Under the pieces are notes generated by a model. It saw only the letters and a program-made list of their open reading frames with translations. It was not told the origin of the DNA and ran no database searches. This document shows, piece by piece, positions 33,225-37,479 of a DNA stretch of 64,000 bases (position 1 is the stretch's first letter; each line of letters begins with the position of its first letter). Origin of the DNA: Agromyces sp. H66 (GTDB lineage: Bacteria; Actinomycetota; Actinomycetes; Actinomycetales; Microbacteriaceae); the NCBI RefSeq assembly GCF_004959775.1, contig NZ_SJZG01000002.1, positions 372,001-436,000 of the forward strand, given 5' to 3'. The translations under genes and the position numbers were made by a program.

Positions 33225-34728
33225 CCGCCTCACCTCCCAGCCTCGCTCTGACCGCATCGTGGAATCGCCGGCCGCGGTCGGCGTAGTCGGCGAACTGGTC
33301 CATCGACGCCGCCGCCGGCGCGAGGAGCACCGTGTCCCCCGGTTCGGCCGTGGTTGCGGCCAGCGCGACCGCCTCGGGCATCACCTTCTCAGTGTCGGCC
33401 GTGGCGACCTCGAAGAGAGGCAGTTCCGGCGCGTGTCGCCGGAACGCCGCGACCAGGGGCGCACGGTCGACGCCGATCACGATCGCGGCACGCAGGCGTC
33501 CGACGTGCGCGGCCACGAGGGCGTCGGCGTCGACGCCCTTCAGCAGGCCGCCGACGATCCACACGACGTGCGGGAAGGCTCGCAGCGATGCCTCGGCCGC
33601 GTGCGGGTTGGTGGCCTTCGAGTCGTCGATCCAGCGGATGCCGCCGGCGTCGGCGACCTGTTCGATGCGGTGCGCGTCGAGGCGGAAGTCGCCGAGCGCG
33701 TCGTGGATGACGCCGACCGGCACCCCGTACGACCGGGCCAGCGCCGCGGCCGCGAGGATGTTCGCCACGACGTGCGGCGCGGCGAGGCCTCGGGGCTCGA
33801 GTTCGCCCACCGTGATGATCTCGAGCGCCGCCGTGCGCCGCTCGTCGAGGAACGCTCGGTCGCACAGGATGCCCTCGACGACGCCGAAGTCGCTCGGGCC
33901 CGGCACGTCGAGGCCGAAGCCGATCGCCCGGGCGCCCTCCTCGACGTCGGCCTCCTCGACCATGTGCATCGTCGCCTCGTCGGCGCGGTTGTACACGCAG
34001 GCGACCTTCGTGTTCTCGTAGACGGTCGCCTTGGCCGCCCGGTACGCCTCGGCCGAGCCGTGCCAATCGAGGTGGTCGTCGGCGACGTTCAGCACGACGC
34101 TCGCCCAGGGGTGCAGTGCGCCCGGCCCGGTCTTCGGCAGGTGGTGCAGCTGGTAGCTCGACAGCTCGACCACGAGCACGTCGAAGCCGCCCGGATCGCG
34201 CACCGCGTCGAGCACGGGCACGCCGATGTTGCCGCACGGCGCCGCGCGCAGTCCGTTCGCGGCGAGGAACGTCGCGGCGAGCTGCACCGTCGTGGTCTTG
34301 CCGTTGGTGCCGGTGACGAGGATCCATTCGGCGGCGTTCACCTTGTCGCGCACGCGCCAGGCGAGCTCGATGTCGCCCCACACGGCGACGCCGGCGTCGC
34401 CGGCCCATTCGAGCACGGGATGGTCGGGGTGGAACCCGGGCGAGGCCACGACGACCTCGGGTGCGAACGACACGAGCTCGTCGGGCACGCCGTCGAGCGG
34501 ATGCCGCAGCAGCGTCGCCCCGATGACCTCGAGGATCCGCGCCCGGTCGTCGTCGGCCGACGGGGCGATCACCAGCACGTCGGCGCCGAGCTCGGTGAGG
34601 GTGTCGGCCACCGCGAAACCCGTGACGCCGAGCCCGAGGACGGCGACCCGGAGCCCCCGCCAGTCGGCGTTCCAGCTGGTGAGCGTGTCGAGGCGGTCGC
34701 GGGTCGAGGCGGCATCCACCTCGCTCAC
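33184..34728 (-). CDS. murD: UDP-N-acetylmuramoyl-L-alanine--D-glutamate ligase
   Basis: Adds D-glutamate to the stem peptide. 514 residues: [22 protein letters not shown] loop [61 protein letters not shown]. The real start is GTG 34728, forming a GTGA overlap with the mraY stop; the open frame continues upstream through mraY as a shadow. The C-terminal 41 nt overlap ftsW, so the last 13 residues share DNA with the FtsW N-terminus. Confidence 0.96.
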
Positions 34729-35822
34729 CGCTGCAGCCACTCGAAGTAGAAGCTGCCGACGCCGGCCGCCACGAGCAGGCCCCCGATGATCCAGAAGCGC
34801 ACGACGATGGTGACCTCGGCCCAGCCCTTCAATTCGAAGTGGTGATGGATCGGGCTCATCAGGAAGATGCGCTTGCCGCGGGTGAGCTTGAAGTACGCGC
34901 GCTGCACGATGACCGAGCCGGTCTCGATGACGAACAGGCCGCCGACGAGGATGAGGAGCAGCTGCGTGTGGCTGACGATCGCGAGGGCGGCGAGGGCGCC
35001 ACCGAGCGCGAGCGAACCCGTGTCGCCCATGTAGATGTGCGCGGGGTTCGTGTTCCACCAGAGGAAGCCGATGAGGCCGCCCACGATGGCGGTGGCGACG
35101 ATCGCCAGGTCGAGCGGATCGCGCACCTCGTAGCAGCGGTAGGCGTCGCTCGGGTTCAGGTTCTCGCTGAAGCAGGACTGGTTGAACTGCCAAAAGCCGA
35201 TGATGACGAACGAGCCGATGGCCAGGATCGAGGCGCCGCCGGCGAGCCCGTCGAGCCCGTCGGTCACGTTCACGCCGTTGGACGTCGCCACGGTGATGAG
35301 GCAGATCCAGATGACGTAGAGGACGATGCCGACGACGGTGCCGAACACCATGAAGTCGAGCGGCAGGTCGCGGATGAACGAGATGCTGGTGTTCGCCGGC
35401 GTCACGCTCTGCTCGTTGGGGAACTGCAGCGCGAGCAGTGCGAACGCGGCCGCCACGATGACCTGGCCCGTGACCTTCGCCCAGCCGCCGAGGCCGAGAC
35501 TCTGGCGCTTCCGCGTCTTCAGGAAGTCGTCGATGAAGCCGACGGCGCCGAGGCCCACCATCATGAGGAGCACGAGCAAGCCCGACGCGGTCGGCGGCTC
35601 ATTGCTCACGACCAGGGTGGCGACGAAGTAGCCGAACAGGCTGCCGAGGATGAACACGATGCCGCCCATGGTGGGCGTGCCGCGCTTGACGTGGTGGCTC
35701 TTCGGACCGTCGTCGCGGATGAACTGGCCCCAGCCGATCCGGCGGAAGAGGCGGATGAAGAGCGGGGTCAGGAACAGCGTGAAGGCGAGCGACAACGCCC
35801 CGGCGGTCAGCAGTGCTCTCAC
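34725..35822 (-). CDS. mraY: phospho-N-acetylmuramoyl-pentapeptide transferase
   Basis: Transfers phospho-MurNAc-pentapeptide to undecaprenyl phosphate, making lipid I. 365 residues, about ten helices: [18 protein letters not shown], the acidic site [50 protein letters not shown] and the histidine motif [14 protein letters not shown]. The start is set at GTG 35822 because it overlaps the stop of the last mini-ORF in GTGA and has GGGAG 10 nt upstream. ATG 35831 (MVRV...) is in frame three codons earlier, but GGGAG would be only 1 nt away. Upstream lies the 62-bp repeat array. Confidence 0.95.
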
Positions 35823-35884
35823 GCGAACCATTCTCCCAGTCGGTGACCGGGCAGGCCGATCATCAGTGCTGCCCCGCCGCTCAT
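35819..35884 (-). CDS. mini-ORF 4 of the murF-mraY repeat (21 residues, diverged)
   Basis: The copy next to mraY. Its middle has changed to [14 protein letters not shown] while start, end and length are kept. Its stop TGA overlaps the mraY GTG in GTGA, so the coupling chain reaches mraY. Being the most diverged, it may be the oldest unit. Confidence 0.5.
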
Positions 35885-35946
35885 GCGAACCATTCTCCCA
35901 GTCGGTCGCCGAGGTGGCGGATCATCAGTGCAGCCCCGCCGCTCAT
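35881..35946 (-). CDS. mini-ORF 3 of the murF-mraY repeat (21 residues)
   Basis: Encodes the same peptide as mini-ORFs 1 and 2, again with 4-nt overlaps at both ends. Confidence 0.5.
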
Positions 35947-36008
35947 GCGAACCATTCTCCCAGTCGGTCGCCGAGGTGGCGGATCATCAGTGCAGCCCCG
36001 CCGCTCAT
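35943..36008 (-). CDS. mini-ORF 2 of the murF-mraY repeat (21 residues)
   Basis: Identical in DNA and peptide to mini-ORF 1. It overlaps both neighbours by 4 nt in ATGA, so a ribosome ending one could restart on the next. Confidence 0.5.
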   Translation of the reverse strand: MSGGAALMIRHLGDRLGEWFA

Positions 36009-36070
36009 GCGAACCATTCTCCCAGTCGGTCGCCGAGGTGGCGGATCATCAGTGCAGCCCCGCCGCTCAT
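36005..36070 (-). CDS. mini-ORF 1 of the murF-mraY repeat (21 residues)
   Basis: Begins with ATG overlapping the murF stop in ATGA and ends in TGA that overlaps the next mini-ORF. The peptide starts MSGGAALMI and ends [12 protein letters not shown], the same 12 residues that end MurF. GGGAG about 10 nt before the ATG could serve as a ribosome-binding site. Whether it is translated or has any function as a peptide is unknown; the reading-frame chain is what the sequence shows. Confidence 0.5.
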   Translation of the reverse strand: MSGGAALMIRHLGDRLGEWFA

Positions 36071-37479
36071 GCGAACCATTCTCCCAGTCGGTCGCCGAGG
36101 TGGCGGAGACCCGCCGAGTTCGACGATTTCACGAGCACCGTGTCACCGGGGCGCGCGATCGCGGCGACGAGGTCGAACGCCTCGTCGGCGGTCTCGACGA
36201 AGGTGGACTCGCCGTCCCACGAACCCTCGTTGATGGCCGAGATGTGCAGGCGACGCGCGCCCTGCCCGACGACGACGAGCTGCGAGATGCCGAGGCGCAC
36301 CGCGAGCAGGCCGATGCGGTCGTGCTCCTCCCCCGAGAACTCGCCCAGCTCGCTCATCTCGCCGAGCACCGCGATCGTGCGCGTGCCCGGCGACTGCACC
36401 TGCGCGAGCGTCTTGAGCGCGGCCGACATCGAGTCGGGGCTCGCGTTGTAGGCGTCGTTGATGACCGTGATGCCGTCGCGGCCGCCCATGACCTGCATGC
36501 GCCACCGCTCGGCGAGGGTCATCGATTCGAGGGCCTCGACGATCGCGGGCAGCGGCACGCCGAGCTCGAGGGATGCCGCGATCGCCGCGAGCGCGTTCAT
36601 GACGTGGTGTTCGCCCAGCACGCCGAAGTGCACGCGGGCGGACTCGCCGCCCGGGATCGTCACCGTGAAGTCGGTGCCGCGGGCGTGCACGGCGAGGTGC
36701 GTGGCACGCACGTCGACGTGTCCGCCGAGCCCGAACCACACGACGCGGGCCCTCGTGCGGTCGGCCATCGATGCGACGCGCGGATCGTCGGCGTTCAGCA
36801 CCGCGACATCCGTCTCGAGGAGGTCGGTGACCATCTCGCTCTTCGCGCGCACGGTCTGCTCGATGCCGCCGAACTCGCCCGCGTGGGCGAGGCCGACCTT
36901 GAGCACGATGCCCACGTCGGGTCGGGCCATTCGCACGAGCCTCGCGATCTCGCCGACGGCCGAGGCGCCCATCTCGGCCACGAGGAACTGCGTGTCGTGC
37001 GTGAGCTCGAGCATCGTGATGGGCGCGCCGACCTCGTTGTTGAACGACTTGCGGGCCGCGACCGTCGGGCCGACTCGTTCGAGCACGGCTCGCAGCAGGT
37101 TCTTCGTCGTGGTCTTGCCGTTCGAGCCCGTGACGCCGACGATGCGCAACGCGCCGTGCGCCCGAACCCGCCCGACCACCTCGGTCGCGAGCGCACCGAG
37201 GGCGTCGACGGTGTCGGCCACCACGACCTGCGGCACCGCGAGCTCGAGCGGGTGCTCCACGACGAGGAGCGCCGCTCCCCGCTCGGCCGCGGCGGGCGCG
37301 AACCGGTGCCCGTCGTCGAACTCGCCGCGCTTGGCGAAGAAGACGCCGCCGGGGCCGATCTCGCGGGAATCGGTCGTGACCTCGCCCTCGACGACCGTCT
37401 CGGGCGTGGCATCCGTGCCGTCGAGGCGCAGCGCGCCGCCGACCGCCGAGGCGACCTCGGCGAGGGTGAGGGCGATCAT
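36067..37479 (-). CDS. murF: UDP-N-acetylmuramoyl-tripeptide--D-alanyl-D-alanine ligase
   Basis: Adds D-Ala-D-Ala to the stem tripeptide. 470 residues: GEVTTDSREIGPGGVFFAKRG, ATP loop VGVTGSNGKTTTKNLL, ARKSFNNEVGAPITML, EMGASAVGEIARL, FGVLGEHHVMNALAA and VINDAYNASPDSMSAAL. It starts in an ATGA overlap with murE. Its last 12 codons ([12 protein letters not shown]) are the source of the 62-bp repeats that follow, and its stop overlaps the first mini-ORF start. Confidence 0.96.
   Translation of the reverse strand: MIALTLAEVASAVGGALRLDGTDATPETVVEGEVTTDSREIGPGGVFFAKRGEFDDGHRFAPAAAERGAALLVVEHPLELAVPQVVVADTVDALGALATEVVGRVRAHGALRIVGVTGSNGKTTTKNLLRAVLERVGPTVAARKSFNNEVGAPITMLELTHDTQFLVAEMGASAVGEIARLVRMARPDVGIVLKVGLAHAGEFGGIEQTVRAKSEMVTDLLETDVAVLNADDPRVASMADRTRARVVWFGLGGHVDVRATHLAVHARGTDFTVTIPGGESARVHFGVLGEHHVMNALAAIAASLELGVPLPAIVEALESMTLAERWRMQVMGGRDGITVINDAYNASPDSMSAALKTLAQVQSPGTRTIAVLGEMSELGEFSGEEHDRIGLLAVRLGISQLVVVGQGARRLHISAINEGSWDGESTFVETADEAFDLVAAIARPGDTVLVKSSNSAGLRHLGDRLGEWFA

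Follow-up and report, generated by a model that had tools for sequence, protein, structure and literature searches.

We analyzed a stretch of 64,000 nt from Agromyces sp. H66 (genome G000 in our comparisons), called the window hereafter. On its minus strand lie murF and mraY, which are essential genes of the cell-wall pathway, and the gap between them is filled by four 62-bp units, three of which are identical and one of which is diverged. The features of this junction are as follows.

36067..37479, minus strand: murF, 470 aa (Pfam Mur_ligase_M, Mur_ligase_C and Mur_ligase; codon analysis)
36081..36084, minus strand: GGAG, 10 nt ahead of the start of mini-ORF 1
36005..36070, minus strand: mini-ORF 1, 21 codons, copy 1 of the three identical 62-nt units, with an ATGA overlap with the murF stop
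35943..36008, minus strand: mini-ORF 2, identical to mini-ORF 1
35881..35946, minus strand: mini-ORF 3, identical to mini-ORF 1
36019-36022, 35957-35960 and 35895-35898, minus strand: equivalent GGAG sites of mini-ORFs 2-4
35819..35884, minus strand: mini-ORF 4, the diverged unit, with its TGA overlapping the GTG of mraY
35833-35836, minus strand: GGAG serving mraY
34725..35822, minus strand: mraY, 365 aa from the GTG at 35822 (Pfam Glycos_transf_4 and MraY_sig1; chain offset)
35818..36107, minus strand: entire tandem array, including the copy in the murF tail (TRF)

Tandem Repeats Finder (TRF) reports one array at 35818-36107, with a period of 62, 4.7 copies, 96% matches and a score of 524. 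This is the top score among the 35 TRF rows of the window, and the runner-up scores 149. The repeats are spaced by 62, 62 and 62 nt, and the 248 nt between the start of mini-ORF 1 and the GTG of mraY amount to four 62-nt units. A fifth copy of the tail is the end of murF itself, as the 37 nt of murF that precede the ATGA correspond to the 3' part of the unit. Each mini-ORF is 66 nt (21 codons) long, with starts at 36070, 36008, 35946 and 35884 on the minus strand. They form a chain: the TGA of murF shares an ATGA with the first ATG, further ATGA overlaps join one 21-codon ORF to the following one, and the stop of mini-ORF 4 lies in the GTGA that contains the mraY start. An earlier note, made from the letters of the window, had described four contiguous units, three of them identical, with a partial fifth in the 3' end of murF, as well as mini-ORFs of 66 bp that overlap by ATGA and whose last stop falls in the GTGA of mraY. 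The TRF result and the ORF coordinates confirm both descriptions.

The array was found at one place in the 4.23-Mb genome, with all 39 candidates scored. Other arrays with a period of at least 40 in the same genome are only low-complexity stretches, in L262 and L275, among 464,000 bases scanned (the window plus 400,000 fetched bases, 8,000 of which overlap it). These two stretches (L262:18534-18796 and L275:3187-3495), both outside the window, are tandem repeats that appear to resemble protein repeats.

The copy number of four was read from an assembly in 33 contigs, and an array of about 290 bp in such an assembly raises the question of whether the number is an assembly error. We consider this extremely improbable, given that inserts are also present at the same junction in the single-contig genomes G019, G023, G034, G072, G074 and G077. 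Because these six single-contig assemblies carry inserts, the array is not a lone assembly oddity; it is a real, recurrent feature of Agromyces.

The extent of this recurrence was established with 60 Agromyces genomes, including G000, at one genome per species. Inserts are carried by 15 of them, and murF and mraY overlap directly through RTGA in the other 45. Junction chains were parsed in 59 genomes; in the remaining one, G003, contig ends interrupt the junction, but a direct overlap is visible on contig C7. The count of 59 chains leaves out four rows, which are the second mraY copies G031b and G025a and the contig-broken G003a and G003b. The earlier note had proposed a comparison of copy number with close genomes, and the outcome is that species differ, with zero to four separate mini-ORFs. 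There are four in G000, two in each of G033, G072 and G074, and one in each of the other 11 carriers. In two of these 11, the one ORF is a fusion that reads in frame through two 78-nt units (G081) or three 78-nt units (G077). Altogether, the carriers have 21 mini-ORFs, with lengths of 13, 21, 22, 23, 26, 35, 52 and 78 codons.

Outside the genus, we sampled 60 of the 106 genomes from the family's other genera that had a match, with one junction each. Inspection by eye and with a script showed no insert in any of the 60, with murF and mraY either overlapping or directly adjacent. Likewise, none of the 22 named other-genus loci among the matches listed has an insert within the 60 nt before the match. 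As a control, the murE/murF junction is a plain RTGA overlap in 36 of 41 analyzable Agromyces genomes; 5 were left unresolved by the script, and 18 of 59 genomes ran off the fetched stretch.

Three Agromyces genomes have a second mraY, namely G031 (L144), G025 (L147) and G003 (L176, at the end of contig C8), where only its start is seen. The second mraY follows an ORF that by eye resembles a putative nitronate monooxygenase, and a murF-tail segment, GACTGGGAG, precedes this mraY too. Over 1090 nt, identity between the two mraY copies is 99.7% in G031 and 95.6% in G025. A genome from a different genus of the family has an additional mraY-like stretch, containing a single in-frame TAG, at G139:C1:277645-278736.

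On a tree of murF and mraY from which the junction was excluded, and in which 34 of 62 inner branches are well supported and 12 are drawn open, at least nine changes between presence and absence of the insert are needed. If an insert were lost by recombination between tails, the result would be exactly the direct junction. The nearest relative of G000 is G012 (MraY 95% identical), whose single unit is identical over 66 nt to mini-ORF 4 of G000, although the dS of mraY between the two is 0.32; this identity may reflect recent exchange or conversion. Since G012 has only one unit and this unit is identical to mini-ORF 4, the three identical copies in G000 are probably the newer part of the array.

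The earlier note had also proposed that the unit arose by duplication of the junction. For the 3' part of the unit, which is the murF tail, this proposal holds. For the 5' part, it holds for one class of units. In G000, the 5' part aligns with the mraY start as GCACTGATGATCCGCC against GCACTGCTGA-CCGCC, with a shuffle p value of 0.0055. Among the five units of the ATGA class, four resemble codons 2-7 of mraY in this way (p = 0.021, 0.0055 and 0.040, and 0 of 2000 shuffles for G074), and the fifth, in G072, has p = 0.29. These p values come from simple base shuffles of 16 tested units and are uncorrected. Of the 11 other units, only that of G013 reaches p < 0.05, and its match falls elsewhere in mraY. 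It is thus likely that the class of units in the window arose by a duplication spanning the murF/mraY junction, a conclusion limited to this class.

A different origin would be insertion of a mobile repeat of the MIRU kind at the stop/start overlap. Such repeats have the same -4 nt overlap, and between the genes of an operon they can stand in tandem as identical short ORFs (PMC12548453, PMC4213456). However, the array of the window matches only one place in G000, and the unit of G018 occurs elsewhere in the 60 genus genomes only as fragments of 25-35 nt, among at most 15 scored candidates per genome. In several carriers the diverged unit was matched in part or escaped this search, so that the result covers G018-like units. 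The 3' part of the unit, moreover, is the local murF tail. A mobile insertion therefore seems a most improbable explanation.

The chain of ORFs is unbroken in all 15 carriers, in that the first in-frame stop of each of the 21 mini-ORFs sits in the RTGA start of the next ORF. Overlap of stop and start is found at all junctions in the 59 parsed chains. In-frame fusion of the 78-nt units of G081 and G077 is a second route to an intact chain; here the internal stop was apparently lost through one additional base, and the resulting shift leads into the reading frame of the unit that follows. That the ORF lengths are divisible by 3 was rejected as evidence, because this is true of any ORF from start to stop.

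The bodies of the mini-ORFs change fast, with 8 of 51 nt differing between G018 and G021 and 12 of 51 between G013 and G029. Their pooled pN/pS over five pairs is 0.61, and the dN/dS of MraY is about 0.08 to 0.2 for the four between-species pairs of this pool; values of mraY dN for G033 with G013 and G029 were excluded, as they look like an alignment-frame artefact. These rates bear on whether the mini-ORFs encode functional small peptides that are selected as proteins. The peptides do have common starts (MSGG or MSAV-like) and a common end, DRLGEWFA, but this end is the murF tail with its GGAG, and a pN/pS of 0.61 is far from the constraint on MraY. Furthermore, near relatives have no insert, some peptides are fused or cut to 13 codons, and the two peptides tested had no Pfam match. 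The coding signature is also weak: GC3 is 0.77 in the mini-ORF bodies versus 0.94 in murF, which fits by-product peptides better than selected ones. Overall, selection on the peptides as proteins is very unlikely, and they are probably by-products.

The main rival of the reading that we develop below is a neutral minisatellite, that is, repeats made by slippage and kept in frame by their recency or by a period of 2 mod 3, with no function and no selection on the chain. Units that are identical or nearly so within a species (G000, G077, G081 and G074), the repeated presence changes on the tree and the low GC3 of the mini-ORF bodies all fit this explanation. In addition, homologous slippage would preserve the frame without selection, and young arrays would have had little time to break. 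For this reason, the argument of the earlier note from the frame being kept in all copies of G000 is weak. Three of the copies are identical, and slippage between identical tails preserves the frame, so G000 by itself proves little. Across species, however, the single units of related carriers have diverged in body and in length, yet none of the 15 chains is broken.

We used a neutral simulation to gauge how surprising this is. The probability that all 15 chains would be intact ranges, depending on assumptions, from 4.1e-3 (slow rate, no indels) down to 7.4e-9, but these values overstate the case, because every array was aged over its full terminal branch and carriers were treated as independent. 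The 15 carriers are related and represent fewer than 15 independent cases. When only the nine carriers with a single unfused ORF are considered, the probabilities for rate factors of 1.5 and 2.7 are 0.19 and 0.066 without indels, 0.022 and 0.0023 at 0.05 indels per substitution, and 0.0047 and 0.0002 at 0.1 indels per substitution. The nine single-ORF carriers alone are thus not decisive, and the simulation argument hinges on the indel rate. Without indels and at the slow rate, the value of 0.19 leaves room for a minisatellite, whereas the values for all 15 carriers, at 4.1e-3 or less, do not favor it.

A further line of evidence is the putative ribosome-binding site. The last murF codons CGA CTG GGA GAA contain the GGAG of the next ORF (36079-36090 in the window). 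A GGAG lies ahead of 80 of 80 starts, with 10 nt between them in 78 cases and 7 nt in 2, although many of these sites are homologous or copies of one another, so that they represent fewer than 80 independent cases. In the background, GGAG or GAGG is found before 278 of 3327 RTG triplets (8.4%). The murF tails of the carriers keep GGA in 15 of 15 cases, GAA in 15 of 15, and CGA or AGA in 15 of 15; elsewhere in murF, GGA makes up 5.6% of Gly codons, GAA 10% of Glu codons and CGA 6.7% of Arg codons. At the other invariant G, E or R positions of murF in carriers, the codon is invariant at only 3 of 32. In a carrier, the murF tail no longer touches mraY, and the only visible start left for it to serve is that of the first mini-ORF. 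In all 15 carriers the terminal unit before mraY has GGA followed by G, whereas the codons next to it vary; this pattern indicates a signal in the nucleotides rather than in a peptide. Gene conversion among tails could be a further help in keeping them alike. The fused units of G077 need no internal start, and there the usual place no longer has a GGAG, with a GAGG at 14 nt from the former start; the fused unit of G081 retains its GGAG, at a distance of 12 nt.

Across Agromyces as a whole, murF codons -7 to -4 (with the A-ending CGA, GGA and GAA) are nearly invariant. A segment nearly identical to the Agromyces murF tail is also found at the murF/mraY junction of 14 loci from other genera of the family.

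The retained GGAG and rare murF codons argue against a minisatellite free of selection, as do the intact chains, and we judge that explanation unlikely. The earlier note had suggested selection for unbroken coupling between the two genes, and this suggestion is supported by the 15 intact chains, by the kept GGAG and rare codons, and by the divergence of the bodies between them.

An RNA element was considered as well. The array shows no unusual RNA folding (z = +1.29), no Rfam match reaches the gathering score in 35300-36700, and a simple scan for sigma-70 promoters and terminators found no such site in 35600-36300. With no Rfam match, a fold within chance and no promoter- or terminator-like site, this reading was rejected.

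We think it likely, from the sequence comparisons above, that the array is a translational relay that arose by junction duplication, and that selection guards the chain so that the insert keeps mraY coupled to murF. As a rule, murF and mraY share a few bases in this family, and in Agromyces the GGAG of mraY lies within the last murF codons. Duplication of this junction in Agromyces would have placed a short hybrid ORF between the two genes, and in the species of the window slippage between identical murF-like tails would have amplified it to four. A ribosome that finishes MurF would restart on the overlapping ATG, read 21 codons, terminate, restart, and so eventually reach mraY. Ribosomes are thus predicted to use the starts of the mini-ORFs. 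Because a long untranslated insert would uncouple mraY, only inserts that tile through RTGA or are fused in frame would be retained. We infer that what is selected is the coupling itself or an escape from Rho polarity, which would impose the same constraint. mraY has its own GGAG, and de novo initiation could be sufficient for it.

Published work on coupled genes bears on such a relay. Reinitiation is described as strongly distance dependent in gene pairs of E. coli and Haloferax; with a gap of 38 nt, two E. coli pairs lost 80-90% of it and a third lost all of it, and the last 15 nt of the upstream gene were enough for coupling in two E. coli pairs (PMC10666635). According to a review, coupling is most efficient at distances of -4 to +3 nt, and some E. 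coli studies found coupling across larger gaps (PMC12548453). Given this distance dependence, mraY would be expected to be less well coupled behind an insert of at least 62 nt that is not translated, and an open chain would avoid this.

The relay might also make copy number an evolvable rheostat, in which each slippage event adds or removes one GGAG relay and so steps the ratio of MraY to MurF. Copy number may influence MraY dosage, and the earlier note had suggested that it could set how many ribosomes reach mraY, but we regard the rheostat as a doubtful, tentative extension; under it, the chain rule (RTGA tiling or in-frame fusion) may be the sole constraint.

The closest known kind of element is the mycobacterial MIRU, above all the senX3-regX3 array, where three identical 77-bp MIRU lie between senX3 and regX3 in H37Rv (PMC4213456). 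In both cases a short ORF overlaps its neighbor at -4 nt within an operon, and at the murF/mraY junction an RTGA is found at every boundary, with coupling predicted. Both also have tandem copies between operon genes, here three identical 62-nt units and one diverged unit. Coupling by MIRU has been proposed to limit the impact of an insertion (PMC12548453). In contrast to MIRU, which are interspersed and thought to be mobile, the murF/mraY unit was matched at a single junction, with a 3' part taken from the end of the flanking gene. The two systems occur in different bacteria, the gene pair here is essential, and the likeness described here is one of architecture. The array thus looks to be built like a MIRU array but to lack one defining feature, interspersion.

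Two other comparisons are useful. Like known termination-reinitiation pairs, the junction has an RTGA overlap and, within the last codons of the upstream ORF, a GGAG, here before each of the 80 starts; unlike them, it places the coupling site in series, so that as many as four additional relays separate the two full-length genes. As in short upstream ORFs and bicistronic designs, a short ORF is proposed to bring the ribosome to the next gene (PMC12548453), but here the short ORFs are inside an operon, in tandem and seemingly born from the junction itself. In the open-licence literature, judged by titles and the openings of abstracts, we found no earlier report of a murF-mraY array.

Agromyces offers a natural series of coupling junctions: the two genes belong to a single essential pathway, and the number of relays between them ranges from zero to four among related species. 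The series allows the cost or gain of each termination-reinitiation step, and the need for murF-mraY coupling, to be asked about directly. It also brings into view the question of what lets a tandem repeat expand within an operon while the genes stay coupled, and it suggests that a MIRU-like architecture does not require a mobile repeat and can develop from a local junction.
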